Source: Clostridiales bacterium
Lineage (GTDB): Bacteria; Bacillota; Clostridia; Oscillospirales; Oscillospiraceae
Assembly: GCA_020859945.1 (NCBI GenBank)
Contig: JAJBVG010000069.1
Span: 1-46,319, forward strand
DNA length: 46,319 bases
Reading direction: 5' to 3'
Both the position numbers and the translations under genes were made by a program. Positions 6,460 through 44,501 of the stretch are shown here, one piece after another. The notes under the pieces were generated by a model, which saw only the letters and a list, made by a program, of their open reading frames with translations, did not search any database and was not told where the DNA came from. Each line of letters opens with the position of its first letter. Within the stretch, counting starts at the first letter, position 1.

Positions 6460-6465
6460 TATACT
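6460..6465 (+). promoter_or_regulatory. Candidate -10 of the second PTS operon
   Basis: TATACT at 6460-6465, about 75 bp before the permease start, with no credible -35 at the right spacing. An activator-dependent promoter would fit the divergent AraC gene. No clear direct repeats were found upstream, so this is weak. Confidence 0.35.
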
Positions 6466-6539
6466 TATCTCACCGGAAACGAAAGAGCATCTGTACAGTG
6501 CCAATTCACCCAACTTTTATCACATAGGAGGAGAATAAC

Positions 6540-8426: not shown

Positions 8427-8490
8427 ACAGCAACAGAACCCCGTATGGCAGGTTGCCATACGGGGCCTCGTGGAAAGGAGCGAAGTCCCA

Positions 8491-12500
<4,010 letters not shown>

Positions 12501-27689: not shown

Positions 27690-29636
27690 TCAAATATCCA
27701 GCGCGGCGTGGTAGCCCCAATACACGGCGTTGGTGATGGTGCTGACCCGGCTGGCATCGCCGATGACCCGAACGAAGGGGGCCGTTCCCTGCAACGCCGT
27801 CACCACGTCGGTGCGGGAGCGCTGACCCAGGGCGCAGATGACGCTCCTACCGGGGACGAGGACTTCCTGCCCAGACTGGTCGGCGCAGATGACACCCTCC
27901 TCCGTGACCCGAAGGGCACGATAGCCGGTGTGGACGTGAACATATTTGTCGATCTCCTTCAGCAGGAGAGGACGGTGCCGGACGTTGGCGTCGGGGGCCA
28001 GCGTGTCCCGCATTTCTACCAGATGGACGGTTTTGCCCTCTTGTCCCAGGTGGATGGCGCATTCGCTACCGGCCAGGCCGCCGCCCATGACCACTACGTC
28101 GTCGCCGACCTTGTCCTTTTCCAGGTAGTAGTTGTTGACCACCACCACGTTGTCCCCGTCCAGGCCGGGGATGGGCGGCACCAGCGGAGCGGAGCCGACA
28201 GCGATGATAAGGGCGTCCGGGGCTTCCTTCACCACGTATTCCTTCGTGACCTCAGTGTTCAGGCGAATTTCCACGCCCGCGTCTCTGGCGAACTTGGCGT
28301 AAGTGCCAGCAAGTTGGTACATCTCATACTTGAAAGGCAGGGCCTGCTCGCTCTTGAGGATGCCGCCCAGTTCGGCCTCTTTTTCGCAGAGAATGACCTG
28401 ATGTCCCCGGCGGGCGGCGGTGTAAGCGGCGTACAGACCGCCGGGACCACCACCAGCTACCAGCACCTTTTTGGAGAAAGGCGCGGGGCGCACCTCGTCC
28501 CCCTCGCACTCCCGGCCAATCAGGGGATTGACGGTGCAGCGGCGGGTGGAGGTAGCCGCCCGCTCCGCCATGCAGGTGAAGCACCGCAGACAGCGGACGA
28601 TGTCCTCGCTCTTATTTGCCATGACCTTGTTGGGCAGGAAGGGGTCCGCCAGCAGCGCACGGGCCATATAGACCACGTCCGCCTTGCCGGAGGCGATGAT
28701 TTCCTCCATCTGGGCCGGGTCGTTCAGGCCACCGATGGTGGCCACGGGGACCTGGACGTGCTTTTTGATTTCAGCGGCCAGATAGACGTTGCAGCCGTGT
28801 TCCTTGAACATACTGGGATGGGTGTCCCCGAAGCCCCGCTGATAGGTGCCTGCGGAGACGTGGAGCAGGTCGATGTACGGCTCCACCTGCTGGGCGATAC
28901 GGCAGCCCTCCTCCAGGTCATAACCGCCATCGAACAGCTCGGAGCCGGACATACGGAACTCGATGGGGAAGAACGGTCCCACCGCCGCCCGAACGGATTG
29001 CAGCACTTCGATAGCAAACCGGCAGCGGTTTTCCAGCGAGCCGCCGTACTCGTCGGTGCGCTTGTTGAAGTAGGGGGACAGGAACTGGTTGATGAGCCAG
29101 CCGTGACCGCCGTGGATCATCAACATCTCGAACCCGGCCCGCTTCGCCAGTCCTGCCACATGGCCGTAAGCGGCCACGATTTCGTCGATGAGGTCTTTGG
29201 TCAGGGCTTTCACCTCCACCCCGTCGGGACGAACGCAGGCGGAAGGTCCCCACTGGTGCATGGACTTCTGTTTAGACTTGTCGGTCATGTAGGTCCCGGC
29301 GTACATACCGGAGTGGGACAGCTCCAGGCTGGGAATGGCCCCGTGGCGGCGGATGGCGTCGGCGGTGTAGGTGGCGCAGGCCAGCGAGTTCAAAATACTC
29401 TCGTCCAGATGATAGGCGTGGGAGCCGTCGGTCTGGGGATGTACCATGCACTCGGACACCGTGACGGCCCCAGCGCCGCCCTTGCCCCGCAGCTCATAGA
29501 AAGCGGTGGACTTGGGACCGATGCAGCCATCGTTGGTGATGTCGGTGCCGCCCATAGGTGCGGAGAACATCCGGTTGCGGAAGGTGGTGCGGCCCAGGGT
29601 GATGGGGGCGCACAGGTGGGGATACTGATAAGCCAT
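27690..29636 (-). CDS. Old-yellow-enzyme/Fe-S flavoprotein (2,4-dienoyl-CoA reductase type)
   Basis: A 648-aa NADH:flavin oxidoreductase. Residues 1-340 form an FMN barrel of the old-yellow-enzyme family (LCAPITLGRTTFRNRMFSAP, HGGHGWLINQFLSPYFNKRT). Then come a [4Fe-4S] motif, CLRCFTCM plus a Cys 11 residues on (about 347-365), and a FAD/NADH domain (VLVAGGGPGGLYAAY at about 394, VVVMGGGLAGSECA). The layout matches 2,4-dienoyl-CoA reductase, BaiCD/BaiH and trimethylamine dehydrogenase relatives. In gut Clostridia such enzymes reduce C=C bonds of bile acids, enoates and flavonoids. AAGGAGG precedes the ATG at 29636. The substrate is not shown by the sequence; plant aglycones are inferred from the neighbours. 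Confidence 0.92.
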   Translation of the reverse strand: MAYQYPHLCAPITLGRTTFRNRMFSAPMGGTDITNDGCIGPKSTAFYELRGKGGAGAVTVSECMVHPQTDGSHAYHLDESILNSLACATYTADAIRRHGAIPSLELSHSGMYAGTYMTDKSKQKSMHQWGPSACVRPDGVEVKALTKDLIDEIVAAYGHVAGLAKRAGFEMLMIHGGHGWLINQFLSPYFNKRTDEYGGSLENRCRFAIEVLQSVRAAVGPFFPIEFRMSGSELFDGGYDLEEGCRIAQQVEPYIDLLHVSAGTYQRGFGDTHPSMFKEHGCNVYLAAEIKKHVQVPVATIGGLNDPAQMEEIIASGKADVVYMARALLADPFLPNKVMANKSEDIVRCLRCFTCMAERAATSTRRCTVNPLIGRECEGDEVRPAPFSKKVLVAGGGPGGLYAAYTAARRGHQVILCEKEAELGGILKSEQALPFKYEMYQLAGTYAKFARDAGVEIRLNTEVTKEYVVKEAPDALIIAVGSAPLVPPIPGLDGDNVVVVNNYYLEKDKVGDDVVVMGGGLAGSECAIHLGQEGKTVHLVEMRDTLAPDANVRHRPLLLKEIDKYVHVHTGYRALRVTEEGVICADQSGQEVLVPGRSVICALGQRSRTDVVTALQGTAPFVRVIGDASRVSTITNAVYWGYHAALDI

Positions 29637-29655: not shown

Positions 29656-29826
29656 GTTGTTAGCTATTAGCCGTTAGCTGTTAGTTACGCACTGCTGGAC
29701 AAAAGCGAACAGCGCTAAACATCGGTTGGTTGTTAGTGGTTTGTTTTGTATAGCGAACCCAAAGCGCAGCGTGAATCGTTGAGCAATGCCAAGCTAACAG
29801 CTAAGAGCTAAAAGCCAAAGGCTAAT
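29656..29826 (-). repeat. AGCTAA-ended intergenic repeat, copy A
   Basis: About 170 bp between the MFS and OYE genes. One end has heptamer-like TTAGCTATTAGCCGTTAGC and the other GCTAACAGCTAAGAGCTAA, so the ends are inverted. Read on the minus strand its end TGCGTAACTAACAGCTAACG is identical to the end of copy C (34548-34566 region). The repeat supplies the TAG stop of the MFS gene (29822-29824). Confidence 0.7.
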
Positions 29827-31096
29827 TTGTGGTTTTCTGATAGAGCAGCGCCAGCACGATACCAAGCACGGCCAGTCCCCCCGCGATGAGGAAAGCACCG
29901 CTGTAGCTGCCGGTGGAGGTGAGAACTTTTCCCACCACCGACGGTCCCAGGCACCCGGCCAGAGCAAAGCCGATAAACATAATGCCGTAGTTGACGCTGT
30001 TGTTCTTTGCCCCGAACTGGTCGGCGGTGAAGCCGGGATAGACCCCCATCAGCGCGCCGAAGCAGATGCCCATGATGGACACCCCGGCGATAAACTGAGC
30101 CACTCCGCCGGTGCCGGTGGTCAGCAGGATAACCAGCCCGACAATTTCCAGCAGAAAAGCGGCCAGAAGCACTGTCACCCGGCCAAACCGGTCCGAGAGG
30201 GAACCGGCCACCACCCGTCCGGCGGCGTTGAACAGCGCCAGGACGGAGACCACCATAGCCGCAAGCCCCGCGCCCATGCCGGTAATGGACTGGGCCATGG
30301 GGGACGCCTGAGAGGTGATCATCAGGCCGCTGAACGCACCGCACATCAGCATGAAGATCATCATGTAAAACGTGGGGTCGGCCAGCATTTCCCGCCAGTT
30401 TTTGTCGTTGGAGAGGACAGCCCCGCCCTGCGCCGTCTTGCAGGGAGGCACGGAGTGCCGGAAGTGCCGCTTGACGGCGGGCTGATACCCGGCGGGGCAG
30501 TAGTTTTCGGGGCATTTCAGGATGAACTGGGAGAACACGCCCACGATGAGGACAAACGCCACGCCCAGCACGATAAACGCCTGGCTGATGCCCGCGCCGG
30601 AGATGAGCAGGTTGGCGACGGGCGGTACCAGCACCGAACTGAGGCCATAGGTGGCGGTGGCGATGCCGCCGATGAGTCCCCGCTTGTCGGGGAAAAATTT
30701 GACCGAGTTGTTGATGGTGCAGCCGTAGGCCAGTCCCATGCCCAGGCCGCAGCCCAGGCCATAGGTGACGACGAGCATGGGGATGCTGGTGGCGAAGCCG
30801 CTGGCCAGCATCCCGCCGCCGAACAGCAGCCCACCGGCAAAGACCACCCACCGGGGACCCAGCTTGTCGTTGATGTAGCCGCCGGAAATCATGGTGATGG
30901 GGCCGACGGAGTTGGCCACGGTGTAGACGATGGAGAGGCTGGCGGAGGCCAGCTCCCCGCCGGAAAGGGCGCTGAGCTTCTCCGCCAGGGGCGAAGCGAA
31001 CACGCTCCAGGCGTAGATGGAGCCGATGCACAGGTTGATGAGACAGCTGGCCACCAGCACCAGCCACCGGCGGCTGTCCAGATTTTTCTCTTTCAT
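29822..31096 (-). CDS. OFA-type MFS transporter
   Basis: A 424-aa, 12-helix carrier of the oxalate/formate antiporter-like MFS family (SIYAWSVFASPLAEKL, GGYINDKLGPRWVVFAGGLL, CGLGMGLAYGCTINNSVKFF). It probably exchanges small organic anions across the membrane. The central loop (about 200-225) contains the odd stretch QPAVKRHFRHSVPPCKTA, encoded by a short repeat also found in two other genes here. AAGGAAAAG precedes the ATG. It lies between the GPH symporter and the OYE-type reductase on one strand, so a substrate or product of that reductase is a candidate cargo. The stop codon is provided by repeat copy A. Confidence 0.9.
   Translation of the reverse strand: MKEKNLDSRRWLVLVASCLINLCIGSIYAWSVFASPLAEKLSALSGGELASASLSIVYTVANSVGPITMISGGYINDKLGPRWVVFAGGLLFGGGMLASGFATSIPMLVVTYGLGCGLGMGLAYGCTINNSVKFFPDKRGLIGGIATATYGLSSVLVPPVANLLISGAGISQAFIVLGVAFVLIVGVFSQFILKCPENYCPAGYQPAVKRHFRHSVPPCKTAQGGAVLSNDKNWREMLADPTFYMMIFMLMCGAFSGLMITSQASPMAQSITGMGAGLAAMVVSVLALFNAAGRVVAGSLSDRFGRVTVLLAAFLLEIVGLVILLTTGTGGVAQFIAGVSIMGICFGALMGVYPGFTADQFGAKNNSVNYGIMFIGFALAGCLGPSVVGKVLTSTGSYSGAFLIAGGLAVLGIVLALLYQKTTN
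30440..30478 (-). repeat. Coding-embedded short repeat, copy 1 (in the MFS gene)
   Basis: Coding strand GCCGTCAAGCGGCACTTCCG (complement of 30459-30478) and, 11 bases on, CTCCCTGC. The 20-mer is identical to that at 42087-42106. It encodes AVKRHFR in the loop between MFS halves. Confidence 0.65.
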
Positions 31097-31303: not shown

Positions 31304-32713
31304 TTACTTTTTCCGCTCTTCCAGGTCGGCGTGGATCTGAGGCATTTCCTTATCCAGCTTGTAGAACAGCATGATGATGAAGCAGACAACGATCATCGCC
31401 ACAGGCAGCCAGTTGTACAGGAAGGAGATGGCGCTCTGAGCGGAAGCGGACTGCACCTCGGCAGCACCGTCGTACCCGCCGAAGGCCAGCACCCAGCCCA
31501 GGACCACTTGGCCGATGCCCAGGCCCAACTTCTGAGCGGCGGAGATGGCGGCGTTGCCCATGCCCACGGACTTGACGCCGGTTTTCCACTCGCTGTACTC
31601 CAGCGTGTCGGCCACCATGCCGAAGGCCATGCCGCCGGCTGCGCCCAGACCGATACCCTTCAGGGCGTTAAAGACGATCAGCAGCATCACGTTGGGACCG
31701 CAGAGACCGGTGCCCGCAAAGCCCAGGAGCATTCCCACCAGGCCCAGCTGATAGGTGCGGTGTTTGCCGAACTTCTTCATGAAGAAGGGGGTGAAGAACA
31801 TGGTTGCAAACTGGGAGATGGAAAGGGCGTTGTTCACCGGAGTGTACAGGGAGTAATCGCCCAACACGTCCTTGCAGTAGTAAATGGCTCCGGCGGAGTA
31901 CATGACGATGATGAAAAAGATGACGAACATACAGAAGATCATCGTGACCCAGTACTTGTTGGTCACCAGAGATTTCAGCGCCACCATAGCGGGGATGTCG
32001 TCCTTGGGCTTTTCCTCCTCAGCGGCGGTCTGTACAGCGGTGCGCTCCTTGGTGCCCATGACGCAGATGAGCGCGGAAACTACTACAAAGATACCCACAA
32101 TGATGGTGGCCATGGTCCAGCCCTTCTGGGCCTCAGGGGTGTAGAGGGTGTCGGTCCCGGCGAACCAGACGACCCAGCCCATGAAGAAGGTGTTCATGGT
32201 GATGTTGGCCAGAGTCTGGAAAATCATGCTGATGTTGCCCAGCATACCGTGTTCGTAGCTGTCGTTGGTGGTCAGCGAGATCAGCGAGTTGAAGGGGACA
32301 AACATGGACGTGTAGAACACGGAGTTGACCAGGTTGTAGATGACGAAGATGTAGACGTACTTCACCATTCCGGTGAAGGAGGAGGGGATGCTGAACAACA
32401 GGATCACCGCGATAGCCATTGGTACGCACATCCGCACCAGCCAGACACGGGCCTTGCCCATTTTGGATTTGGTGCCGTCCACGATGCGGCCCATGATCAG
32501 GTCGGAGAACCCGTCAAACAACTTGGAAATGGCGATGATGGTGCTGGCGACCCCCGCGTCCACCAGGGACACGTCGGTCAGGTAGGACATGAAGAATGCG
32601 GACATCATGCCGTTGACCCACGCCATACCGAAGTTGCCGACGCCGTAGCCGATACGGTCGTTCCAGCCCAGTTTGGTGTTGGGGTCGTTGGTTTTGGACG
32701 CAAAATTAAACAT
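31304..32713 (-). CDS. GPH-family sugar:cation symporter
   Basis: A 469-aa, 12-helix carrier of the glycoside-pentoside-hexuronide family (MelB/YicJ group). Seen: LGWNDRIGYGVGNFGMAWVN at the N-terminus, then ISKLFDGFSDLIMGRIVDGT (the conserved D-x-x-D-x-x-M-G-x-x-x-D helix). It takes up a sugar or glycoside with Na+ or H+. AAAGGAG lies upstream of the ATG at 32713. Its promoter has the 21-bp-spaced GGTCGGA repeats shared with the esterase and the GH-A glycosidase, so it belongs to that regulon. The natural sugar may be rhamnose-containing, but that is inferred only from the GH78 nearby. Confidence 0.92.
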   Translation of the reverse strand: MFNFASKTNDPNTKLGWNDRIGYGVGNFGMAWVNGMMSAFFMSYLTDVSLVDAGVASTIIAISKLFDGFSDLIMGRIVDGTKSKMGKARVWLVRMCVPMAIAVILLFSIPSSFTGMVKYVYIFVIYNLVNSVFYTSMFVPFNSLISLTTNDSYEHGMLGNISMIFQTLANITMNTFFMGWVVWFAGTDTLYTPEAQKGWTMATIIVGIFVVVSALICVMGTKERTAVQTAAEEEKPKDDIPAMVALKSLVTNKYWVTMIFCMFVIFFIIVMYSAGAIYYCKDVLGDYSLYTPVNNALSISQFATMFFTPFFMKKFGKHRTYQLGLVGMLLGFAGTGLCGPNVMLLIVFNALKGIGLGAAGGMAFGMVADTLEYSEWKTGVKSVGMGNAAISAAQKLGLGIGQVVLGWVLAFGGYDGAAEVQSASAQSAISFLYNWLPVAMIVVCFIIMLFYKLDKEMPQIHADLEERKK

Positions 32714-32761: not shown

Positions 32762-32825
32762 AGTATACGGATTGGTTGAGCTTTTTGACAGGCGTTATCC
32801 TACCAGAACTTGCCCTTTTCCGACC
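32762..32825 (-). promoter_or_regulatory. Regulon promoter 1: GGTCGGA direct repeats and -10 (GPH gene)
   Basis: On the minus strand GGTCGGA (complement of 32819-32825) and GGTAGGA (complement of 32798-32804) are 21 bp apart. The -10 TATACT (complement of 32762-32767) lies 31 bp from the nearer repeat. There is no good -35. The start near 32755 gives a leader of about 42 nt. Confidence 0.75.
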
Positions 32826-32838
32826 CGATGTGACCGTG

Positions 32839-34392
32839 TCAGTCCTCATAAAACCGGATGTCCTGCCAGGTGTCCATCAGCTCGGTGCGGTCCACCTGCT
32901 CGGTCCGGGTCTCCCGGTCGAAGATGCGCAGCTTGCAGTTGTACCCGGTGTAGCGGGGCCAGTCCTCGCCGGGCGCACCGGTCTTGATGAAGCGCACCCA
33001 ACTGCCGTGCATTTCGTCGATGATGCTGTCCACCAGGGCGTCGTCCTCGCCGTCGAAGATAAACCGGCTGAAATGGAAGTCCCGGTTGCCGAACATGGCG
33101 GGGAGGTCGAAGGCGTGGGAGGCTTTCAGGCCGCTGGCCTCGCCGGATTTCGTCACCAGGTCGTAGCGGTACATCCAAACGTCCGGGGTGTACTGGCGCT
33201 GTCCTTCAGCGACCTTGACGGCGGGGACCTGGAAAGCGTAGTCGGTGCCGAAGTTGATGAATGGCACCCCCACCTTCACCGGCCCCGGCGCGGTGGTCAC
33301 AGATGCGGCGCTGAACTTGTCCTGCCCGTCGAACTGCTTCAGCCAGGCGTCCGCGTTGGGGTGGTAGTAGCGTACAAAGTCAAAAAAGTGGTCGATGTTC
33401 CCGTTTTTCTCAAACATCTGGGCGATCATGCTCCAACTGTTGGGGAAACCGGTCTTTTCCGGGTGGACGAAGGTGGTGCCCTCGTGAGCGTTGCTGCCGA
33501 TGATGAGCTTCACCCCGGCGGCGCTGCCGCTACGGATGGCGTCGATGGGGCGGACGGGCAGCAAATCGTCCTGAATGGGGCCGGGGAGGAACATACCGGG
33601 GTTGCGGTACTGGTGGTGCTCCGCCACGTAGTCGTTTCCTTTCAGGAAGGTGAAGGGGTCGTCGGTGCGGAGCCGGGGCAGGTCGGCCTCCGTCCAGCCC
33701 ATGCCCTCCAGAAAGAGGTCGATGTTCCGCCGGGCCATCTCGTGAGTCACCACGCAGTTGGGCAGGGCGCTCTGGGAAATGGCCTGCTGGAAGGTCCCCT
33801 TGACGGCGGGGCAGGCCATCATATTGACCACCGAGGCGGCCCCGGCGGACTCGCCGCAGATGGTCACCCGCTCCGGGTCGCCGCCGAAGGCGGCGATGTT
33901 CTCGTGGATCCACTGCATGGCTAGAATTTGGTCGGAGAGGCCGCAGTTGCTCTCGAAGTCCTCACAGCCGGGATAGGTAGTGAAGTCGTAAAAGCCCAGC
34001 ACGTTCAGCCGGTACTGGAACACCACATAGACGATGCCCTCCTCCACGAAGGTCTTGCCGTTATAAAGCGGTACGTTGCAGCCGCCGGTGTTGTAGCCGC
34101 CCCCGTGGATGTACACGAAAACCGGGAGGTTTTCTCCCTCCAGCGGGCGCTGAACGTTGATGGTCAGGCAGTCCTCGGCTCCCTTGTACTGGCCCTCGTC
34201 GAACTGCACCGCCTCCGGGCCGTACTCCTTCGCGTCAAAGACGCCGTCCCAGGGCTGGACAGGCCGCGCCCGCTTGAACCGCAGCTCTCCCACGGGCGGC
34301 TGGGCGTAGGGGATGCCCAGGTACTCCATCATGCCGTTACGCTGGTAGCCCCGCACCTTTCCGCTGCTGATGGTGACAATTTGTTCACTCAT
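32839..34392 (-). CDS. Type-B carboxylesterase (PnbA-like)
   Basis: A 517-aa alpha/beta-hydrolase of the carboxylesterase type B family. Start: VRGYQRNGMMEYLGIPYAQP; YIHGGGY forms the oxyanion region; GESAG near residue 180 holds the nucleophile Ser. No signal peptide is seen, so it is cytoplasmic. Family members split esters of aromatic or other acids. Beside a rhamnosidase and ene-reductases it may release acyl groups from plant glycosides, which is inference. GGAGGCAAACGAG precedes the ATG at 34392. Its leader contains repeat copy C, which sits between the regulon promoter and the gene. Confidence 0.9.
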   Translation of the reverse strand: MSEQIVTISSGKVRGYQRNGMMEYLGIPYAQPPVGELRFKRARPVQPWDGVFDAKEYGPEAVQFDEGQYKGAEDCLTINVQRPLEGENLPVFVYIHGGGYNTGGCNVPLYNGKTFVEEGIVYVVFQYRLNVLGFYDFTTYPGCEDFESNCGLSDQILAMQWIHENIAAFGGDPERVTICGESAGAASVVNMMACPAVKGTFQQAISQSALPNCVVTHEMARRNIDLFLEGMGWTEADLPRLRTDDPFTFLKGNDYVAEHHQYRNPGMFLPGPIQDDLLPVRPIDAIRSGSAAGVKLIIGSNAHEGTTFVHPEKTGFPNSWSMIAQMFEKNGNIDHFFDFVRYYHPNADAWLKQFDGQDKFSAASVTTAPGPVKVGVPFINFGTDYAFQVPAVKVAEGQRQYTPDVWMYRYDLVTKSGEASGLKASHAFDLPAMFGNRDFHFSRFIFDGEDDALVDSIIDEMHGSWVRFIKTGAPGEDWPRYTGYNCKLRIFDRETRTEQVDRTELMDTWQDIRFYED

Positions 34393-34413
34393 TCTCGTTT
34401 GCCTCCTTATATG

Positions 34414-34577
34414 AGCTGTTGGCTTTTAGCTATTAGCTCTTAGCTTGGAAGTTCCTGGCCTTTTGCGCTGTGCTTTTTGTTTTCAGCGCTATGGCAGCTG
34501 GTAGCTAGCAGCTCTTTGTTCACAGCGCTGCGCTTTTGGTTTGCAATGCGTAACTAACAGCTAACGGCTAATAGCTT
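34414..34577 (+). repeat. AGCTAA-ended intergenic repeat, copy C, in the esterase leader
   Basis: About 164 bp. The left end is GGCTTTTAGCTATTAGCTCT and the right end GTAACTAACAGCTAACGGCT then AATAGCT, so the two ends are inverted and could fold into a long stem. The inside has CGCTGCGCTTTTGGTTTGCA, close to copy B. Removing it would put the esterase start about 30 nt from its transcription start, as in the two sister promoters. Confidence 0.7.
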
Positions 34578-34591
34578 ATTTACTGTAACTT

Positions 34592-34656
34592 ATTATACCA
34601 ACACCACCATTGGGAGAAATACCGCTTTCCCGACCACCTCTTACCCTAATCCGACC
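34592..34656 (-). promoter_or_regulatory. Regulon promoter 2: GGTCGGA direct repeats and -10 (esterase gene)
   Basis: On the minus strand GGTCGGA (complement of 34650-34656) and GGTCGGG (complement of 34629-34635), 21 bp apart. The -10 TATAAT (complement of 34592-34597) is 32 bp from the nearer repeat. The same site lies upstream of the divergent GH78 promoter and could serve both. Confidence 0.75.
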
Positions 34657-34673
34657 TGTTGCGCAAAAGGGCG

Positions 34674-34702
34674 GTGACAAGTGCGCCGCCCTCTGCTAAA
34701 AT
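34674..34702 (+). promoter_or_regulatory. Promoter of the GH78 gene
   Basis: -35 GTGACA (34674-34679), spacer of 17 bp, -10 TAAAAT (34697-34702). The GGTCGGA repeat pair lies about 50-80 bp upstream of the predicted start near 34709. Confidence 0.55.
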
Positions 34703-34754
34703 AAGAACAGACAGGAGCGCGGCTCCTGTAAGTACAAACAAAGGGGAGTTTCCT

Positions 34755-37376
34755 ATGCTGACGATTTCGCATTTGATGGTCAATGGACTGACCGAGCCTG
34801 TCGGCATTCGTGATTCGATTGAATTGAGCTGGGCGCTGGAATCCGACCAGCGCAATGTGAACCAGACAGGGTATCAAATCCAGCTTTTGGAGGCCGGAAC
34901 GCTGCTCTATGACAGCGGCAGCGTACCCAGCCGCCAGTCCGCACACGTTTCCCTCGCCTGGGACTGGAAAAGCATCACCCGCTACACTCTCCGGGTGCGC
35001 TCTGCCGCAGGAGAAGAACGCAGCCCGTGGGCGGAGACGAGTTTTGTCACCGCATTTCAAACCCCGGAGGAGTGGCGGGGCAGTTTCCGCTCCGCCGAGC
35101 CAGAGGAGGACAAAGACCAAAGCTACGGGACGCTGCTCCGCAGGAGGCTCACCATCTCAAAGGCTGTAAAAGAGGCGTGGCTGGTCTGCTCCGCTCATGG
35201 CATTTACCACGCCTTTCTCAATGGCCAGGCCGTTTCCCCGGACGAGCTGGCCCCCGGCTGGACCAGCTATCACAAGCACCTGCGCTACCAGACCTATGAG
35301 GTCACGTCCCTGCTCCGGCAGGGGAAAAACGCCCTGGGCGTTATGCTGGGGGCCGGGTGGTACAAAGGCATGATGGGCTACAAGCACACCCGCAACAACT
35401 ACGGCACCCGTACCGCCTTCGGCGGGCAGCTCATCCTTCGGTACACGGACGGCACCGAGGAATGGGTCTGCACCGACGAGGACTGGAAGGGCAGCAGGGG
35501 GCCGGTGCTGTTCAGCGAGATTTACGACGGCGAGGTCTACGACGCCCGGCTGGAGCAGCCGGGGTGGACTGAGCCGGGCTTTGACGACAGCGGCTGGTGG
35601 GCGACTGAACCTGTCCCCCGGCCGGTGGAAACGCTGGTGCCCCAGCAGGGTTGCCCGGTGCGGGAGATGGAATGTGTCTCCCCTGTCCGGCTGTTCACCA
35701 CCCCCACAGGCGAGCAGGTCCTCGACTTCGGACAGAATATGGCGGGGTGGTGCGCTTTTACGGTGGAAAACGCCGCCCCTGGCGACGTGGCGGAACTGCT
35801 GTTCTTCGAGACGCTGGACAGCCAGGGCAACGTCTACACAGAAAACCTCCGGGGCATCCGCCCACGGGTGCGCTATATCTGCAAGGGTGAGGCGCGGGAG
35901 CAATTTCGGCCACTGTTCACCTTCCAGGGGTTCCAGTACGCCCAAATCATCTCCTGGCCCGGTACGCCACGGCTGGAACAGTTCCAGGGAAGGGCAGTTT
36001 ACTCCGCCATGGAAGAGACCGCCGCCTTCCGCTGCTCTGACCCGCGGCTGAACCAGCTGTGGCACAACATCCTGTGGGGCATGAAAGGAAACTTTATCGA
36101 CATCCCCACCGACTGCCCCCAGCGGGACGAGCGGCTGGGCTGGACGGGGGACGTGGTGGCCTTTGCCCCCACTTCCTGTCTGCTGATGAACACCGATGCC
36201 TTTTACCGGAAGTGGCTGGCGGATGTCCGGGCAGACCAATTTGAAAACGGAGCCGTCCCCCATGTGGTGCCCGACCTGCTGACGGGTCACATGGAAGGGG
36301 ACTGGCTGCTGGACCAAGACGTTCAGGGCGGGGCCTCCGGCTGGGGAGACGTGACCGTGCTGCTGCCCTGGGCGCTGTACCTGGCCTACGGGGACAAAAC
36401 GGTTCTGGCGGAGCAGATGGACAGTATGCTTCGGTGGCTGGACTTTCTGGAGCGGCACAGCGAGGGCTGTCTGTTCCGGTTCGGGGCGCAGTTCGGGGAC
36501 TGGCTGGCGCTGGACGCCGCCGCAGGCAGCTACAAAGGGGCCACTCCCGACGAGTATTGCAGCGCCGCCTATTACTGTTATGTCACCCGGCTGGTGGGGA
36601 AAATGCTCCGGGTCCTGGGCCGGGAGACCGAGGCCGAAGCGCTGGAGCAAAAGGCCCGGACACTGACGGCGGACTTCCAGAGGCGGTTCTTCACCCCGGA
36701 CGGGCGGCTGACCGTCCCCACCCAGACCGCCCATGTGCTGGCGCTGCGGTTTGACCTGGCGCCGGAGGCGTGGAAACCCCAGGTGGTACAGGGGCTGAAA
36801 GACCTGCTGGCCCAGTCCGGCGGCCACCTGACCACCGGCTTTTTGGGGACGCCCCACATCGCTCCGGTCCTCAGTGAAAACGGCTGTCTGGAGGAAGCCT
36901 ATGCCCTGCTGCTGAAAGAGGACTGTCCCGGCTGGCTCTATCAGGTGAAGGCGGGGGCCACCACGGTCTGGGAGCATTGGGACGGAAAGAAACCCGACGG
37001 GACCATGTGGAGCGCCGATATGAACTCCTTCAACCACTACGCCTATGGGTCCATTGGAGAGTGGATGTTCCGCACCATCGGCGGGCTGGAGTTGGACGAA
37101 AATCGGCCCGGCTATGAACACTTTTTCATCCGGCCCCTGATTGGCGGAGGGCTGGACTTTGCGGAAATTGCCTACCAGAGCAGCTATGGAAAAATTGAAA
37201 TTCAGTGGCACAGAGATGGGGATGTTGTCACGCTGGATGTGACCATTCCACCCAACACCAGTGCCGAAATTCAGCTTGTGCAGGCCCGTGAGGCTCTGGA
37301 CGATGGTGGGCTGGTTTTTGCGGAGCATCAGGCCCGCGCCGGTTCCGGGCAGTGGCGGGTGCGGTATCGGATTTGA
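34755..37376 (+). CDS. GH78 alpha-L-rhamnosidase
   Basis: An 873-aa enzyme of glycoside hydrolase family 78. The N-terminal beta-sandwich domains (about 1-330) include the lectin-like region with APGWTSYHKHLRYQTYEVTS. The (alpha/alpha)6 barrel follows, with DCPQRDERLGWTGD near 455, which holds the catalytic acid region, and TTVWEHWDG near 738, whose Glu is the proposed base. A C-terminal beta domain ends the chain. It releases terminal L-rhamnose from plant glycosides such as rutinosides. There is no signal peptide, so it acts on imported glycosides, perhaps via the GPH symporter. AAGGGGAG precedes the ATG at 34755. It is divergent from the esterase. Confidence 0.93.
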   Translation: MLTISHLMVNGLTEPVGIRDSIELSWALESDQRNVNQTGYQIQLLEAGTLLYDSGSVPSRQSAHVSLAWDWKSITRYTLRVRSAAGEERSPWAETSFVTAFQTPEEWRGSFRSAEPEEDKDQSYGTLLRRRLTISKAVKEAWLVCSAHGIYHAFLNGQAVSPDELAPGWTSYHKHLRYQTYEVTSLLRQGKNALGVMLGAGWYKGMMGYKHTRNNYGTRTAFGGQLILRYTDGTEEWVCTDEDWKGSRGPVLFSEIYDGEVYDARLEQPGWTEPGFDDSGWWATEPVPRPVETLVPQQGCPVREMECVSPVRLFTTPTGEQVLDFGQNMAGWCAFTVENAAPGDVAELLFFETLDSQGNVYTENLRGIRPRVRYICKGEAREQFRPLFTFQGFQYAQIISWPGTPRLEQFQGRAVYSAMEETAAFRCSDPRLNQLWHNILWGMKGNFIDIPTDCPQRDERLGWTGDVVAFAPTSCLLMNTDAFYRKWLADVRADQFENGAVPHVVPDLLTGHMEGDWLLDQDVQGGASGWGDVTVLLPWALYLAYGDKTVLAEQMDSMLRWLDFLERHSEGCLFRFGAQFGDWLALDAAAGSYKGATPDEYCSAAYYCYVTRLVGKMLRVLGRETEAEALEQKARTLTADFQRRFFTPDGRLTVPTQTAHVLALRFDLAPEAWKPQVVQGLKDLLAQSGGHLTTGFLGTPHIAPVLSENGCLEEAYALLLKEDCPGWLYQVKAGATTVWEHWDGKKPDGTMWSADMNSFNHYAYGSIGEWMFRTIGGLELDENRPGYEHFFIRPLIGGGLDFAEIAYQSSYGKIEIQWHRDGDVVTLDVTIPPNTSAEIQLVQAREALDDGGLVFAEHQARAGSGQWRVRYRI

Positions 37377-37400
37377 CACTCTAATCCTTCCCAAAGGGCA

Positions 37401-37428
37401 AAAAAATCCGGGGGCTTCACGCCCCCGG
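37401..37428 (-). terminator. Terminator between the convergent GH78 and GH-A genes
   Basis: Stem CCGGGGGC / GCCCCCGG (37408-37415 with 37421-37428), loop of 5. On the minus strand TTTTTT (complement of 37401-37406) follows, so it mainly ends the GH-A gene transcript. On the plus strand only AAAA follows. Confidence 0.75.
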
Positions 37429-37444
37429 AAAATCATACGGTCGT

Positions 37445-38668
37445 TCAGTTTTTCTTTGGTACTAATTTGGTAATTTCCTTCCCCAGCGCCCACAAATCGC
37501 CGGTGCCGCCAGCCATCTCCTGAATGGCCAGCGCCCGCTTCCGGGGACGACAGCCCTCAGCGCCGGAGGGGTCGGTGAAGAGGCCGAAGTACACCTCGGT
37601 CAGCCCGCCGATCTGGTTCTGTTCGATGCCCGCCCGCTGGAGCATGGCCTCCTCGTTGAGCAGCCGGAAGTTGTGCAGCGTCCGCACATAGGGCATCTCC
37701 GAGGCCATTTGCAGGATCTTCTTGTTGTAGGCGGCGTACCGCTCCTCCAGCACCGGGTCGCCGCAGTCGGTGAAGCCCGTCTCGGTCAGGATGACCTGCT
37801 TGTGGCCGTCGCCGTACTTGCACATGACCTTGTAGGCGGCGTCGTTGTAGCTCCACCAAAGGCTGTCCGGCTCCTCCACGTTCAGGAACAGGTCTTTGTC
37901 CGAAGCCACCGGCTTGATGGTGAACACATAGGGGTGCCACGCCACGAGGTCGAAGTAGTCGTCGGTGTTGGTGGACCAGAAGCTGCCGGATTTGATGCGG
38001 CTGTACACCATATCCAGCGCCCAGGCTACGCCGTACATCACCGGCAGGAAGTCGGGCAGGCCCCCGCCCAGCCCCGGCGTGCTCAGCGCTGGAGAGAAGG
38101 AGGCCACTTTCGCTTTGGGGTTGCCCCGGCGGACGCCTCTGGCGGCGAAGTACATCATGTCCACCGCGATGTCCATCTTTTCCTCCGGAGAGAAGGGCTG
38201 GCTCATGTCGCTGTCCAGAAATCCGTCCGGGTGCAGAAAGGCGTTCAGGTTCCACTCGTTGCCCACCTCCCAGATGGTCACCTGGGGGAATTGCTTCGCC
38301 ATGGTGGTCCAGCTCTGTTCCAGCATTTCCAGCGCCTGCATATAGAGGCTGCCCGGGGTCAGGTCGCGGGGCTGCATGGCGTGGCCGGACTTCTGTTTGC
38401 AGCCGGCGGGCAGAAACCAGTCGTGGCTCATGCCGGTGACTTCGATGTCCAGCTCCGCGGCCCGGTCCAGCAGCTTGGTGTGCATGGCCACCACGTCCTC
38501 ATTGGGGGTGGTGGGGTCCTTCAGCACATCGGGAATGTGCATCCAGGAGCGGTAGGCGTTGCAGCCCATCCCCTTCACCAGGTCCAGATAGGCCGCGGCA
38601 GGGACGCCGATATCCCCCTCCCGCTGGATGAGCGGCTCTCCCACTCCGAAAAAGCGTTCTGAATACAT
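37445..38668 (-). CDS. Clan GH-A glycoside hydrolase (GH39/GH5-like)
   Basis: A 407-aa single-domain TIM-barrel glycosidase. The clan GH-A pair is visible: VTIWEVGNEWNLNAF gives the acid/base Glu (about 139, after Asn) and VILTETGFTDCG the nucleophile Glu (about 292). Before them, GVPAAAYLDLVKGMGCNAYR is a typical first barrel strand. I cannot place it in one family; GH39, GH5 and GH30 relatives are all possible. It has no signal peptide. AGGAGG lies 7 bases before the ATG at 38668 (another ATG is at 38671). Its promoter carries the GGTCGGA repeats, so it should be controlled together with the GPH symporter and esterase. Confidence 0.75.
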   Translation of the reverse strand: MYSERFFGVGEPLIQREGDIGVPAAAYLDLVKGMGCNAYRSWMHIPDVLKDPTTPNEDVVAMHTKLLDRAAELDIEVTGMSHDWFLPAGCKQKSGHAMQPRDLTPGSLYMQALEMLEQSWTTMAKQFPQVTIWEVGNEWNLNAFLHPDGFLDSDMSQPFSPEEKMDIAVDMMYFAARGVRRGNPKAKVASFSPALSTPGLGGGLPDFLPVMYGVAWALDMVYSRIKSGSFWSTNTDDYFDLVAWHPYVFTIKPVASDKDLFLNVEEPDSLWWSYNDAAYKVMCKYGDGHKQVILTETGFTDCGDPVLEERYAAYNKKILQMASEMPYVRTLHNFRLLNEEAMLQRAGIEQNQIGGLTEVYFGLFTDPSGAEGCRPRKRALAIQEMAGGTGDLWALGKEITKLVPKKN

Positions 38669-38721
38669 CATTTTACCTCCTGTAATACCAGTGTTGCCCA
38701 CTGTGGGCTTTTACTGCTGCC

Positions 38722-38785
38722 ATTATAGAAGAAATCCCCCCGTCAAAACAGCCGGAATCCTACCGGAAGTTCCCCTTTTCCGACC
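38722..38785 (-). promoter_or_regulatory. Regulon promoter 3: GGTCGGA direct repeats and -10 (GH-A gene)
   Basis: On the minus strand GGTCGGA (complement of 38779-38785) and GGTAGGA (complement of 38758-38764), 21 bp apart. The -10 TATAAT (complement of 38722-38727) is 31 bp away, with no good -35. The distal repeat touches the stop codon of the preceding gene. The leader is about 47 nt. Confidence 0.8.
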
Positions 38786-39213
38786 TACTCGCCCAGCACG
38801 TCAATGATCCGAATCTCTACGCCGCCCTCCGCATTGTGAACCTCGGCGCGGAAGCGGGGCTGGCACAGATAGGGGCACAGGGTCTCGCTGTCGGTCAGGA
38901 ATTTGGGGCAGGCGCTGATAAACGGAGCGGTGCCCTTTGCCGGGGCGTAATAGGCGTTGTTTTCCACAAAGAGCTGACACTCTGCCCCCGCGCTGTCCCG
39001 CCCCCGGAACAGGTATCGGGCGCACATATGCCGGGTCCCGGCGGGGTCCTCCACCTGCACGTCCACGCCGCCCGGCAGAATCTCCCCTGAAAACAGCTCG
39101 GACTCCACCCTTCCCGTGAAGGGAATCATCGTTACCGACCCACAAGGGCTTTTCAGGTCGGAGATTTGGGTTTTGTCAATAAAAATTTGGAAGGTCATGA
39201 TCTGCTTGTCCAT
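38785..39213 (-). CDS. DUF3237-like small protein
   Basis: A 142-aa soluble protein without signal or membrane segment. GRVESELFSGEILPGGVDVQ, then HMCARYLFRGRDSAGA, resembles the small beta-barrel DUF3237 family (G-x-x-x-G-x-L-x-x-G-x-x-LPGG-x-D...ARY-x-L). Its function is unknown. AGGAGG precedes the ATG. It starts 34 bp after the histidine kinase and is probably transcribed with it. DUF3237 proteins occur near catabolic and redox genes, which tells little. The regulon promoter of the next gene begins at its stop codon. Confidence 0.6.
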   Translation of the reverse strand: MDKQIMTFQIFIDKTQISDLKSPCGSVTMIPFTGRVESELFSGEILPGGVDVQVEDPAGTRHMCARYLFRGRDSAGAECQLFVENNAYYAPAKGTAPFISACPKFLTDSETLCPYLCQPRFRAEVHNAEGGVEIRIIDVLGE

Positions 39214-39247: not shown

Positions 39248-40870
39248 TCATTCCTCGGCGTCCAGCGGGAAGCGGAACCGGCTGACAGCCCCGTTGTCGT
39301 TGTAGAACCGGCAATCTGCCCGGTCGCCGTAGAGCATCTGTATCCGAAGCATGGTGTTTTGCAGCCCCACCCGCTCCCGCAGGGCGTCGTAATCGTGTTT
39401 TTCCAGCGCCTCCAGCAGCCACGCCGGGTAGCCGCCGCCGTTGTCCCGCACCGTGATGACCGCGCACGGAACGCCGTCCGCTTCGTCGTAGTCCACGGTC
39501 AGTTGAATCAGCGTTTTGTGGTCGGGGCCGATGGAGTATTTCACCGAGTTTTCGATGAAGTTTTGAAGCACCATATTGGGGATGAAAATATCCTCCACAA
39601 AGGGGTCCACCGCCGTTTCATAGGTGAACTGTCCCTCGTAGCGCAGCTGCTGGATGTTGATGTAGTCCTGAATATGGGCCAGCTCCGCCTGGAGGGGAAC
39701 AAAGTCGTCCTCGGTTTTCAGAAGGTAGCGCATATAGCTGGCGGAGAAGCGCATCAGCTTTGCGGCAGTGTCGTACTCCCGGCTCAAAATCATGTTATAG
39801 GCCATGTTCAGGGAGTTGATCATAAAGTGGGGCCGCAGCTGATAGGACAGGTTTTTCAGCCGGGTCCGCTGGTTTTCCAACTGTTTCTCGTAGACCTCGA
39901 TTTTCAGTCCCTGTATCTTGCCCGCCATATGATTAAAGGTGTGTTCAATTTGGGCAAACTCCGTGGTGCGGGAGCCGTGGGTGATGAGCGCGTCAAAGTC
40001 GCTCTGCTCCAGCCGCTCCATAGCCGCCGTCAGGCGGCGCAGGGGCAGGATAATGAGCCGCCGCAGCACAAGATACACCAGAGGCAGCATCAGCACCATA
40101 AACAGGGTAACGAAGCGAAAATACCGCTGGAAGAAGGGCAGGGAGGACAGGGCCTCCTGCTGATTCAGCCGCTCGCAGACGGTGAGGGTACACTTGTCCG
40201 ATTGGACCGTGAGCAGCAGCTCGCCCTGCTCGGTTTCCAGCCCGTCTACCTGCTCCGCGTCAATAAAGAACACGTCGGCGTCCTCTATCTCCGACAGAGC
40301 GTTCAGCGCCACAAAGGAGCCACCATAGATGCCGTTGGAGCAGTACCCTTGCATGAGGTAGGGCGAACCGTCGATTTCTACATACTGCCATTCAGAACTT
40401 TCCTGAGAGAGGGCCGTGAAGGTCTCCGTGATGTACCCGGTCATCTCCTGCTGGCTCTCCGGCTGGGAGGTGTCCCGCAGATAGACGTACTGAAAGTCGC
40501 TCTCTGGGATGTAGAAGTAAAAGCCGGTGATGTACTGGTAATAGAGGGCTGTCTTTGCGATTTCCGTGTTGAGGGAGTTGGCCGAGTAGTAGAAGTGAGA
40601 GGAGCTGCGGTCCAGCAGATAGACGGTGCTGCTGCTGTAGAAGGTCATGGAGTTGACATAGTTCTCCGCCATGTCCAGTTCCCGGTCGATTTGGGACATA
40701 TAGCTTTCCAGCAGTTGAACATGGGCCTGCTCCACCTGCTCCATGCCGCTGCGCATATAGCTCCAGTTGATGTAGCAGGAGAGAAAAACCACCGGCAGCA
40801 TCAAAAAAAGGATGGTCAGGAATACCGGCATTGTGATAGAATGGACTATATTAAAAATTTTCTGTTTCAT
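39248..40870 (-). CDS. YesM-type sensor histidine kinase
   Basis: A 540-aa membrane kinase. TM1 is at about 12-38 (TMPVFLTILFLMLPVVFLSC), then an extracellular sensor domain of about 200 residues and TM2 near 250-270 (LFMVLMLPLVYLVLRRL). A HAMP segment and the His_kinase core follow, with the phospho-His in QLRPHFMINSLN (about 347), then VLQNFIENSVKYS and VRDNGGGYP for ATP binding. YesM-type kinases sense sugars, often with an extracellular binding protein, and pair with AraC-type response regulators. The start at 40870 is MKQKIFNIV with GGAGG upstream. It is head-to-head with the response regulator, only 42 bp apart. Confidence 0.93.
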   Translation of the reverse strand: MKQKIFNIVHSITMPVFLTILFLMLPVVFLSCYINWSYMRSGMEQVEQAHVQLLESYMSQIDRELDMAENYVNSMTFYSSSTVYLLDRSSSHFYYSANSLNTEIAKTALYYQYITGFYFYIPESDFQYVYLRDTSQPESQQEMTGYITETFTALSQESSEWQYVEIDGSPYLMQGYCSNGIYGGSFVALNALSEIEDADVFFIDAEQVDGLETEQGELLLTVQSDKCTLTVCERLNQQEALSSLPFFQRYFRFVTLFMVLMLPLVYLVLRRLIILPLRRLTAAMERLEQSDFDALITHGSRTTEFAQIEHTFNHMAGKIQGLKIEVYEKQLENQRTRLKNLSYQLRPHFMINSLNMAYNMILSREYDTAAKLMRFSASYMRYLLKTEDDFVPLQAELAHIQDYINIQQLRYEGQFTYETAVDPFVEDIFIPNMVLQNFIENSVKYSIGPDHKTLIQLTVDYDEADGVPCAVITVRDNGGGYPAWLLEALEKHDYDALRERVGLQNTMLRIQMLYGDRADCRFYNDNGAVSRFRFPLDAEE

Positions 40871-40912: not shown

Positions 40913-42530
40913 ATGAACCTGCTCATTGTTGACGATGAGATCAGCTCCATCCGGGCTGTCTCGCATATGTTGGATTGGGAAACGATTGGCATTGACCACT
41001 GTTTTACCGCCCTGAGCGCGGCCGAGGCCAGGCAGTACATGGAGGAAAACCAAATCGACCTGTTGCTCTGCGACATCGAAATGCCCCAGCAGTCCGGGCT
41101 GGAGCTGCTGGAATGGGTCAACAAGCAGCAGCTCCAAATCTCCTGCATCTATATGACCTGCTACGCGGAATTTTCCTACGCCCAGAAAGCCATTCAGCTG
41201 GGCAGCGAGGCTTATCTGCTCAAGCCCATCGATCCAGATGAGTTGAAATCAGTTCTGACCGCCGCCATTCAGAAACGGCAGGCCCTGCAAGCGGCCCAGT
41301 CTGCCAGCCGTCTGATGGAGGAGGACTGCGACAACCTGTGTCACCAGTTCTGGCAGGAGCTGTTCTACGAGGACATCCCCTCTAACCGTCCGGCCATCGC
41401 CGCACGCATCGGGCAGCTTGGGCTGCCGCTGGACCCGGCCTGGTATTACTGCACCTGTCTGGTGGTGGTGCGGAACTGGGGCAAGGACATGGAGACCACC
41501 CACCGGCTGAACCGGTACGCCGTCCACAACGTGGTGGCGGAGCTGTTCGAGGGGGCGGCGGGGCCGGCCAGTTCCTTTTTCACCGTCTTTCCCTTTGGGC
41601 AGCACGGGCAAATGTGCATCTGCGGCGGAGAGGACGGGGCGGCTCTGTTCCGGTGCTGCCGCAGCTTCGCGGAGCAGTATCTGGCCTCCGAGCGAAAATA
41701 TCTGGAGGTGCGCTCCGTCTGCTATCTGGGCCAGCCCACCCACATCGAGGACGCCGCGGAGGAAATGGAATGTCTCATGCGGATGGACAACAGTCACCTG
41801 AAAAACAACGGCATCTCCGTCCACGGCAAGGCGGAACCAGCCCTGCCGGTGGAGAGCGACTTGGAGGAACGGTTTCAGCGGTGGAACGGCCTGCTGGAGG
41901 ACGGGCAGCTGGAAAAGGCCCGGACGGAGATCGTTGCGTACCTCTCCAGCCAAGAGGACAACGTCTGGTTCAACAAAAAACGATTCCAGCAGTTTAACAG
42001 CCGCTACTCCGGCCTGTTGACCGCCTACGCCGAAAAACACCACTTCCCCCTGAACCAACTGACCGCCGACCCACAAAACGCCCACTGCCGTCAAGCGGCA
42101 CTTCCGCGCTTCGCGCTCCCTGTGCTTCGAGATGTCGGACCGGGGGCTGGACAATATGGCGGCGTGGGTGGAGCGCTCCCTGCTCCTGCTGGAGCAGCAG
42201 GCCGCTGCCAGCGACGACCCGGTGCAGGCCACCCAGCAGTTCATCGAAGAACACCTGTCGGAAAAGCTGGACATGGCGCAGATCGCGGAAAACGTCCACC
42301 TGAACCAGGATTACCTCACCCGCATTTTCAAGCGGGCCACTGGGACCTCCATCAAGGGCTACATCGTCAACCGCCGCATGGAGCAGGCCAAGCTGCTGCT
42401 GGAGACCAGCCACCTGCCCATTGCGGACGTGGCCTATCGGGTGGGGTATTACAACTACACCAGCTTCAACCGCATTTTCAAAAAGACCTACGGCGTTTCG
42501 CCCCAGAGCTGCCGGCGGGGAGCGGATTAA
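40913..42530 (+). pseudogene. AraC-type response regulator (YesN-like) with a frameshift
   Basis: An AraC-type response regulator split by a frame change. Frame 1 from the ATG at 40913 (GGAGAAAC ahead) gives the receiver domain: VDDE at 7-9, phospho-Asp54 in LLLCDIEMP and Lys in LKPIDPDEL. A middle region of about 250 residues follows. Near 42072-42087 the reading must move by one base to reach VKRHFRASRSLCFEMSDRGL and the C-terminal AraC HTH pair (LDMAQIAENVHLNQDYLTRI, IADVAYRVGYYNYTSFNRIF), which ends at 42530. Without the shift the protein runs on in the wrong frame with no DNA-binding part. A short repeat shared with two other genes sits at the break. It could be a real mutation, a sequencing error or a phase switch. 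Confidence 0.85.
42087..42123 (+). repeat. Coding-embedded short repeat, copy 2 (at the regulator frameshift)
   Basis: GCCGTCAAGCGGCACTTCCG (42087-42106) is identical to copy 1 in the MFS gene, with CTCCCTGT at 42116-42123. In the downstream (HTH) frame it encodes AVKRHFR; in the upstream frame it reads RQAALPR. The frame change lies at or just before its left edge. Confidence 0.65.
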
Positions 42531-42640: not shown

Positions 42641-44206
42641 ATGAGAAAGAAAAGCCTGATTTGCTTGCTCCTACCCTCAAGGGGTACTTCTGCCCTCAAG
42701 GGGCACTTCCGCTGCGCTCCCTGCGGGGCTTTGCCCCTCCTTGTGGCGGTGCTGCTGCTGGTTTGCTGCTCCTGCGGCGGGGAGACGAAGGAGGCAACCG
42801 GTTCGTCCTCGGCTTCCGACGAGCAGGAAGTTGTGACGCTGCGCTTTCCTTTAATCGTGGACGACGCTCTGCCGGAGAACATCGACCAGGTGGAAGACAC
42901 GCTGAACGACTACCTCAACGAACAAATCGGCGTGCAGGTTTCCTTTGTGGCGGTGTCCATCAGCTCGCTGGAGGACTATTATCTTCTCCAGTCCTCCAGC
43001 ACAGAAAAACTGGACTTTTTCTCGCTGCTGCCGGGAGAGGAGCTGCTCTCCACCATGGTGGACGCGGGGTTAATTCTGCCTCTGGATGACCTGCTGACGG
43101 AGTACGGGCAGGGGGTGCTGGACAGCGCTGACGAGGTCCTCTCCACAGGGCAGCTGAACGGCGTGCAGTATATGGTCCCGGCGGTACGGGACAACTACAC
43201 CATGGGGACCAGCCTGGAGTTCAACGCCGCGCTGGTGCGCAAGTACGGGTTTGACATCAGCTCCATTGAGACGTTGGCGGACGTGGAGCCGATGTTGGAG
43301 GTCATTCTGGAAAACGAGCCGGGCGTGGTCCCCTTCACGTCCTCCGGCTCTGCCAGCCTGACCCAGCTCCTGGGCGGCTACGACTGCCTAGGCGACACCC
43401 TGGGGGTGCTGAACCTCCGGGCCGACGACTCCCTGACGGTGGTGGACTGGTATGAGACCGAAGAATTTTTGGAGTTGACCCGGTTTCTCTACCAGTGGAA
43501 CCAAAAGGGCTATCTGTCCCAGGACGCGGTGGTCTCCCAGCAGAGCGGCACGTCGATGGTGGAGGAAGGGACGGCATTCTGCACCCTGAGTACCATTATG
43601 CCCACTGGGGACTACGGCAGCGAGGTGTCGGAATCCAGTGTGGTGGTGGAGGTACAGCTGAGCGACCAGCCCCAGCTGCTCACCAGCTACCAGATGGGAC
43701 TGGAGGGTATTTGTATCTCCGCCTCCTGCGCCGCGCCGGAAAAGGCCATGCAGCTGTTGAACCTGCTCTACACCGACGAGTGTGTGGTCAATCTGCTGGA
43801 GCATGGCATCGAGGATGTCAATTACACCCTGACCGAGGATGGGGCCGCGGACCACGGCGGTGGCTACTTCCTGCTCTACGGTCAGCCCCTGAACCAAACG
43901 CTGCGGTATCCTTCGGCGGACTACGGGGAGCATTACGAGGAAAAGTGCCTGACCTTCGCGGAAAACGACGTGGTTTCCCCGGCCTGCGGCTTTGTCTTTG
44001 ATTCCTCGCCCGTATCCAAAGAGGTGGCGCTGTGTCAGGCAGTGGTGGAGTATTACTTCCCGGTGCTGGACTGCGGCTGTGTGGACCCGGACGAGGAGAT
44101 TCCAAAGTTTGTGGAGGAATTAAAAGAGGCGGGCATCGACACCATTATCGCGGAGAAGCAGCGGCAGTTGGACCAGTGGGCGGCGGAGCAGACGGACGGG
44201 GCGTGA
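42641..44206 (+). CDS. Orphan sugar-binding lipoprotein (LipO/YtcQ type, DUF3502)
   Basis: A 521-aa extracellular solute-binding lipoprotein. After a long signal region (hydrophobic LPLLVAVLLLVCCSCG, lipidated Cys at 43 or 45) comes a family 1 binding fold (FPLIVDDALPENIDQVEDTL, MVPAVRDNYTMGT). A C-terminal DUF3502-type end follows (FVFDSSPVSKEVALCQAVVE, IDTIIAEKQRQLDQW). Relatives bind oligosaccharides for ABC importers, but no permease gene is near. It follows the AraC-type regulator, so it may serve the divergent kinase as sensor partner. The signal region is unusually long because residues 12-30 are encoded by a duplicated 19-bp repeat. GAAAGGAGCGTGAGGGA precedes the ATG. Confidence 0.85.
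   Translation: MRKKSLICLLLPSRGTSALKGHFRCAPCGALPLLVAVLLLVCCSCGGETKEATGSSSASDEQEVVTLRFPLIVDDALPENIDQVEDTLNDYLNEQIGVQVSFVAVSISSLEDYYLLQSSSTEKLDFFSLLPGEELLSTMVDAGLILPLDDLLTEYGQGVLDSADEVLSTGQLNGVQYMVPAVRDNYTMGTSLEFNAALVRKYGFDISSIETLADVEPMLEVILENEPGVVPFTSSGSASLTQLLGGYDCLGDTLGVLNLRADDSLTVVDWYETEEFLELTRFLYQWNQKGYLSQDAVVSQQSGTSMVEEGTAFCTLSTIMPTGDYGSEVSESSVVVEVQLSDQPQLLTSYQMGLEGICISASCAAPEKAMQLLNLLYTDECVVNLLEHGIEDVNYTLTEDGAADHGGGYFLLYGQPLNQTLRYPSADYGEHYEEKCLTFAENDVVSPACGFVFDSSPVSKEVALCQAVVEYYFPVLDCGCVDPDEEIPKFVEELKEAGIDTIIAEKQRQLDQWAAEQTDGA
42674..42723 (+). repeat. Tandem 19-bp duplication with coding-embedded repeat, copy 3
   Basis: CCCTCAAGGGGTACTTCTG (42674-42692) is followed directly by CCCTCAAGGGGCACTTCCG (42693-42711), then CTCCCTG at 42717-42723. 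The second unit is the third copy of the repeat (GCCCTCAAGGGGCACTTCCG, 18 of 20 identical to copies 1 and 2). It encodes ALKGHFR in the lipoprotein signal region. Confidence 0.65.
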
Positions 44207-44402: not shown

Positions 44403-44501
44403 AAAGACAGGAGAAACCGGTCGTCAACGCCGAAATCCAACGGCGGAACCTGTGTTTTTACGAAACTCTCATTGACATCGGCAATCGAGCAGGAGGAACT
44501 T

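Follow-up and report, generated by a model that had tools for sequence, protein, structure and literature searches.

Tandem 21-bp half-sites at three promoters of a sugar-use gene cluster in a Clostridiales bacterium are probable targets of the adjacent YesN-type response regulator

The gene cluster described here raises the question of which protein reads a paired DNA repeat that stands ahead of three of its genes. The cluster lies on a 46,319-nucleotide contig of a Clostridiales bacterium of the Oscillospiraceae (GenBank assembly GCA_020859945.1, contig JAJBVG010000069.1), which was analyzed over its whole length and is called the window below. The three genes encode a GPH-family symporter, an esterase, and a GH-A-like glycosidase, and each has its own predicted promoter. 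A preliminary description of this sequence had noted GGTCGGA repeats at these promoters and had proposed a new local regulon, activated by the AraC-type response regulator encoded at 40913. We put at roughly three in four the probability that the three elements, each 42 bp long, are sites for a dimer of this YesN-type regulator, which would activate the promoters.

The pattern GGTCGGA-N14-GGTNGGR had three matches in the window, all on the minus strand and where they had first been reported (32798-32825, 34629-34656, and 38758-38785), with a chance expectation of 0.01 and 0 of 100 shuffled sequences giving three. The period between the heptamers was 21 bp in all three pairs. When the first heptamer was relaxed to GGTNGGR and up to one mismatch was allowed, only the same three places were found, with 1.28 expected and 12 of 100 shuffles reaching three. 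The whole draft genome (2,671,620 bases in 97 contigs) held three matches to GGTNGGA-N14-GGTNGGR, all at this locus, and five to a reversed control pattern; the signal is therefore the clustering ahead of neighboring genes and not the genome-wide count. An isolated GGTCGGA at 42586, ahead of the gene for the solute-binding protein, was considered as a fourth site and rejected. It has no second heptamer, and as a half-site it scored 7.1 bits, compared to 18.6-29.4 for the six real halves, with twelve background places scoring higher. The sites and the promoter elements beside them are as follows.

32784-32825, minus strand: site A, two 21-bp half-sites with cores GGTCGGA (32819-32825) and GGTAGGA (32798-32804)
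32762-32767, minus strand: -10 box of promoter A (symporter), TATACT
34615-34656, minus strand: site B, two 21-bp half-sites with cores GGTCGGA and GGTCGGG
34592-34597, minus strand: -10 box of promoter B (esterase), TATAAT
34674-34702, plus strand: candidate divergent promoter of the GH78 gene, GTGACA-17-TAAAAT, matching at 10 of 12 positions, with TG ahead of the second hexamer
38744-38785, minus strand: site C, two 21-bp half-sites with cores GGTCGGA and GGTAGGA
38722-38727, minus strand: -10 box of promoter C (glycosidase), TATAAT

Each element, at 42 bp in two 21-bp halves, is longer than the heptamer pair first described. All six halves have GGT at positions 1-3 and GG at positions 5-6; position 4 is C or A, position 7 is A or G, positions 8-9 are A or T, and positions 11-13 are G or C. 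A model of the full 42 bp gave the three sites 51-60 bits and the next-best place in the window 7.3 bits, the model having been built from the same sites. When each site was left out of the model in turn, site A scored 35 bits and site C 32 bits. In the AraC family, the two helices of one monomer read two successive major grooves, and a 21-bp half would fit one such monomer.

At all three promoters, which are predicted, the nearer half-site overlies the -35 position ahead of a good -10 box. The preliminary description had read the -10 boxes correctly, and had placed the nearer heptamer 31, 32, and 31 bp away from them; the actual gaps are 30, 31, and 30 bp for A, B, and C. Its statement that no good -35 was present held for promoters B and C, both unflagged by a promoter scan, and failed for promoter A, where a weak -35 (CTGTCA) occurs with an 18-bp spacer. 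The scan found 3 promoter-like sites in the region compared to 1.5 expected. Site B lies upstream of the candidate GH78 promoter, as first described, and is oriented the opposite way. Site C begins at the final base of the stop codon of the DUF3237 gene.

The pattern GGTNGGANNAGGGNNANNNNNGGTNGGR had 11 matches in 4 of 98 genomes, and the control had none. These four genomes, the window's own (G000) and G015, G020, and G031, belong to the same genus, and the matches in the latter three fall in the syntenic locus. When a related pattern was run on five genomes and as many as two mismatches were tolerated, each of these four had three matches (12 in all) and G001 had none; the control had 3. In an order-wide draw of 394 genomes, which did not contain G015, G020, or G031, only G000 matched, with its three sites. 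When the intergenic regions of the four site-bearing genomes were aligned, all three -10 boxes were invariant, and the 28-bp cores were more conserved than their surroundings, with 27/28 columns invariant at site A compared to 76/96 outside (p = 0.023), 28/28 compared to 125/172 at site B (p = 2.9e-4), and 28/28 compared to 50/89 at site C (p = 1.5e-6). The full 42-bp blocks were invariant at site B (42/42, p = 2.7e-6) and at site C (42/42, p = 1.9e-10). All p values are nominal and treat columns as independent; the alignment limits were chosen by the analyst. The restriction to one locus, the exact spacing, and the conservation in four genomes support well the earlier idea of a local AraC-type regulon.

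The genes that these promoters serve, and those beside them, are as follows.

27690-29636, minus strand: OYE-family ene-reductase, which may be a downstream member of transcription unit A
29822-31096, minus strand: MFS transporter, which may be a downstream member of transcription unit A
31304-32713, minus strand: GPH-family sugar:cation symporter (TIGR00792 above cut-off, PF13347), target A
32839-34392, minus strand: carboxylesterase-family protein (PF00135, 314.7 bits), target B
34755-37376, plus strand: GH78 alpha-L-rhamnosidase (PF17389 and related domains), divergent from target B
37445-38671, minus strand: GH-A-like glycosidase, target C
38785-39213, minus strand: DUF3237 protein (PF11578), upstream of site C
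39248-40870, minus strand: sensor histidine kinase of the YesM type (PF06580, HAMP)
40913-42530, plus strand: YesN-type response regulator (receiver and AraC helix-turn-helix), its frame split here
42641-44206, plus strand: extracellular solute-binding protein with a DUF3502 C-terminus (PF12010)

If the adjacent regulator is the activator, each of its monomers would read one 21-bp half-site, GGTMGGR and the G/C box about 10 bp on, in two major grooves on one face of the DNA, and two monomers would bind head to tail. Lying over the -35 position, the nearer monomer would bring RNA polymerase to a promoter whose -10 is good and whose -35 is poor. A plant glycoside or oligosaccharide, captured extracellularly by the neighboring solute-binding protein, may serve as the signal, which would pass from there to the kinase and on to the regulator. 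The symporter, esterase, and glycosidase would then be switched on and, through the shared site B, perhaps the divergent rhamnosidase as well.

XylS, an AraC-family activator, has at its Pm promoter a repeat period of 21 bp and an overlap with the -35 box; it lacks a receiver domain and itself binds the ligand. Its box sequences differ from those found here. Sites of XylS and MtlR consist of two 15-bp direct-repeat blocks (PMC5481539, PMC4514859), and the present sites resemble those of XylS at Pm in that the repeat is direct and present twice, each copy carrying a pair of boxes for two recognition helices (PMC5481539). In Caldicellulosiruptor bescii, 3 of 5 AraC-type two-component regulators were assigned tandem-repeat sites upstream of promoter elements (PMC8579813). 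The likeness, taken at the level of layout, lies in tandem sites upstream of sugar-use promoters, predicted activators, and local targets; transcription starts were mapped in C. bescii whereas the promoters here are predicted (PMC8579813). The three-promoter tandem-site design thus belongs to a known kind, and calling the regulon new, as was first done, was generous, since tandem-repeat sites of AraC-type two-component activators had already been described (PMC8579813). A regulator of the same type in C. cellulolyticum, the 532-aa XydR, bound DNA upstream of its target genes through its effector domain (PMC3572039). The closest parallel in gene content is CuaDSR of Ruminiclostridium cellulolyticum, in which a solute-binding protein, a sensor kinase, and a 538-aa YesN/AraC regulator act together, and in which the regulator activates neighboring uptake and breakdown genes (PMC10384115). 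Here too a gene for a lipoprotein-like solute-binding protein (its signal judged by eye) adjoins the kinase and regulator genes, so that the same three kinds of protein are encoded together; this adjacency suggests a three-component sensor like CuaDSR, with the solute-binding protein as a possible co-sensor. The two systems also differ. CuaDSR forms one operon and acts on an ABC transporter operon (PMC10384115), whereas the kinase and regulator genes here are divergent, and three separate promoters lead to a symporter, an esterase, and a glycosidase as putative targets.

The 40913 gene had been called the only AraC-type response regulator in the window. This is correct among annotated response regulators; however, a second AraC-type gene is present at 5331-6377. 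We rejected it as the binder of the sites: at E <=1e-60 it was found in 4 of 32 genus genomes (G000, G002, G004, and G028) and in none of G015, G020, and G031, all of which have the sites. Its homologues in three genus genomes that lack the tandem sites are 82-84% identical. The helix-turn-helix part of the 40913 regulator was found, at E <=1e-20, in 5 of 32 genus genomes, namely the four with sites and G001. Beyond the genus, homologues of this regulator in a family sample (2 of 400 genomes besides its own) were only 30-32% identical, too distant for a comparison of sites. The glycosidase gene was found in 6 of the 32 genus genomes, which were the four with sites, G013 (twice), and G011. The glycosidases of G013 and G011 have 74-76% protein identity, and all three of these further loci retain an esterase relative (68% DNA identity). 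The first G013 locus also has the symporter, with the three genes close together and co-directional behind a DUF3237-like stretch (by eye); the second G013 locus has its esterase gene reversed. The tandem site was absent from the three stretches (17.0, 12.2, and 5.3 kb), and the rest of the G013 and G011 genomes had no match to the GGTNGGANNAGGGNNANNNNNGGTNGGR pattern. Regulator and sites are thus missing together from genomes that keep the glycosidase and esterase genes.

The preliminary description missed a 37-bp repeat within the regulator gene. The receiver domain (PF00072, 80.2 bits) is N-terminal and the helix-turn-helix (PF12833 and PF00165) is in a downstream frame; the two are not in a single open reading frame here. 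They are split by 37 extra bases (42086-42122, plus strand) before the DNA-binding domain, as judged against the aligned genes of G031, G015, and G001. The regulator is full length in four relatives (G001, G015, G020, and G031); the frame of G020 has no stops, and its protein matches that of G015 over residues 1-527. The insert is made up of TGCCGTCAAGCGGCA and a second small hairpin with a spacer between them, and its predicted fold is two hairpins. The 15-base repeat core GTCAAGCGGCACTTC occurs, with up to one mismatch, at 101 places in the genome, compared to 0 for the reversed control. Related copies were found within the open MFS frame at 30474 (minus strand) and, in both G015 and G020, within the GH78 gene; another, 72 bases long and so divisible by three, lies at 42672-42743 in the part of the solute-binding protein gene that encodes the signal peptide. 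Copies inside genes either keep the frame open or shift it, and they differ between sister species. By eye, the second hairpin shows paired changes (GGGGC/GCCCC, GAAGC/GCTTC, and GCGC/GCGC). These paired changes and the many copies give the insert the appearance of a mobile repeat rather than of a sequencing error; a mixed-strain assembly is another possible source. Because the regulator gene is interrupted by this small repeat, the window's own genome has probably lost this control or has it in altered form. We think it improbable that a proliferating two-hairpin repeat has rewired the whole sugar regulon in one lineage, with the helix-turn-helix part, separated from its receiver, made alone from an open frame with an ATG at 42132 and driving the three promoters free of any signal, and with other copies at the locus adding in-frame peptides.

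Several results weigh against the assignment of the sites to the 40913 regulator. Site B, when left out of the model, scored 6.5 bits, only just above the best background place at 5.3 bits. The full 42-bp block of site A was invariant in 38/42 columns, which is not significantly above its flanks (p = 0.09). Inspection of the interval between the regulator and kinase genes revealed no site. In G001 the regulator is present, and the sites and the glycosidase were not found; the completeness of that genome is 76%, and the 6.7-kb contig concerned breaks off within the kinase gene. Because the genomes with sites are close kin (aligned pieces longer than 1 kb are 87.8-96.5% identical), joint presence and absence carries little weight. 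That the sites are intact in the window's genome although the DNA-binding domain of the regulator lies out of frame there suggests either a recent event or residual function. Finally, of the 17 AraC-type domains in the genome, 8 are matched at 82% DNA identity or more in each of G015 and G020, the two relatives covered by this comparison. These eight genes are the response regulator and seven others, and none of the eight was found at more than 70% in G010 and G017, which lack the sites. Co-occurrence among close relatives cannot choose among the eight.

The seven shared genes and the broken state of the adjacent regulator beside persisting sites are what favor the strongest alternative, that the elements are real activator sites for an AraC-family protein encoded elsewhere and that the adjacent regulator controls something else. 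We regard this as unlikely, since all sites found in the genome sit at this locus beside the regulator, and the window's one other AraC-type gene is excluded as the binder. Regulators of sugar use also tend to adjoin their targets (PMC8579813). Among the eight candidates we favor the response regulator because it is encoded next to the sites and because such systems tend to act locally. The earlier proposal of this regulator as activator is therefore kept, on the grounds of adjacency, joint presence and absence, and exclusion of the window's other AraC-type gene; its binding to the sites is likely, but seven other AraC-type genes are shared as well.

A second alternative is that the sites serve a repressor, or are some other DNA or RNA element. 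The candidate GH78 promoter looks good unaided, as this would lead one to expect. However, the layout is tandem and not palindromic, and at all three promoters the nearer half lies over the -35 position, where an activator of the AraC family belongs, ahead of a good -10 and with a poor -35; we hold a role of this other sort to be a poor prospect. That the similarity is a functionless remnant of a duplicated intergenic segment is scarcely credible, for although the likeness between sites A and C extends past the heptamers, site B keeps the same heptamers and spacing with a different inner sequence, and the cores are invariant or nearly so in the four genomes while the flanks change.

The putative target genes look like a system that takes up esterified plant glycosides bearing rhamnose and strips them. 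The glycosidase at 37445-38671, which we take to be of the GH-A type from its GNEW and TETG motifs, had no Pfam or NCBIfam match, and a PDB sequence search gave no meaningful match. It is 73-97% identical to five aligned homologues and may perhaps represent an undescribed glycosidase family. Its match in G031 (L033, G031:C120:17841-19058) contains one TAA, and the gene may be decaying or mis-assembled there. No ABC permease was found among the 22 window proteins or parts scanned with Pfam; the contig ends at 46319, and a permease elsewhere is possible. Where permeases might be expected, after the solute-binding protein gene, there is an aldo-keto reductase with a 4Fe-4S segment (44472-45596). 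A second sugar locus (5331-11067) comprises the other AraC regulator, a phosphotransferase system transporter, and a GH106-like rhamnosidase. Several intergenic stretches, including 34450-34590 of the window and those of loci L015 and L016, are filled with short AT-rich repeats of another family (TTAGCTGTTAGC-like units), which varies between relatives.

Taken together, these data supply a testable set of promoters and a binding motif for an uncharacterized two-component sugar sensor tied to rhamnoside breakdown. With its regulator split by a tiny repeat and the likely target sites intact, the locus offers a natural before-and-after comparison among sister species.

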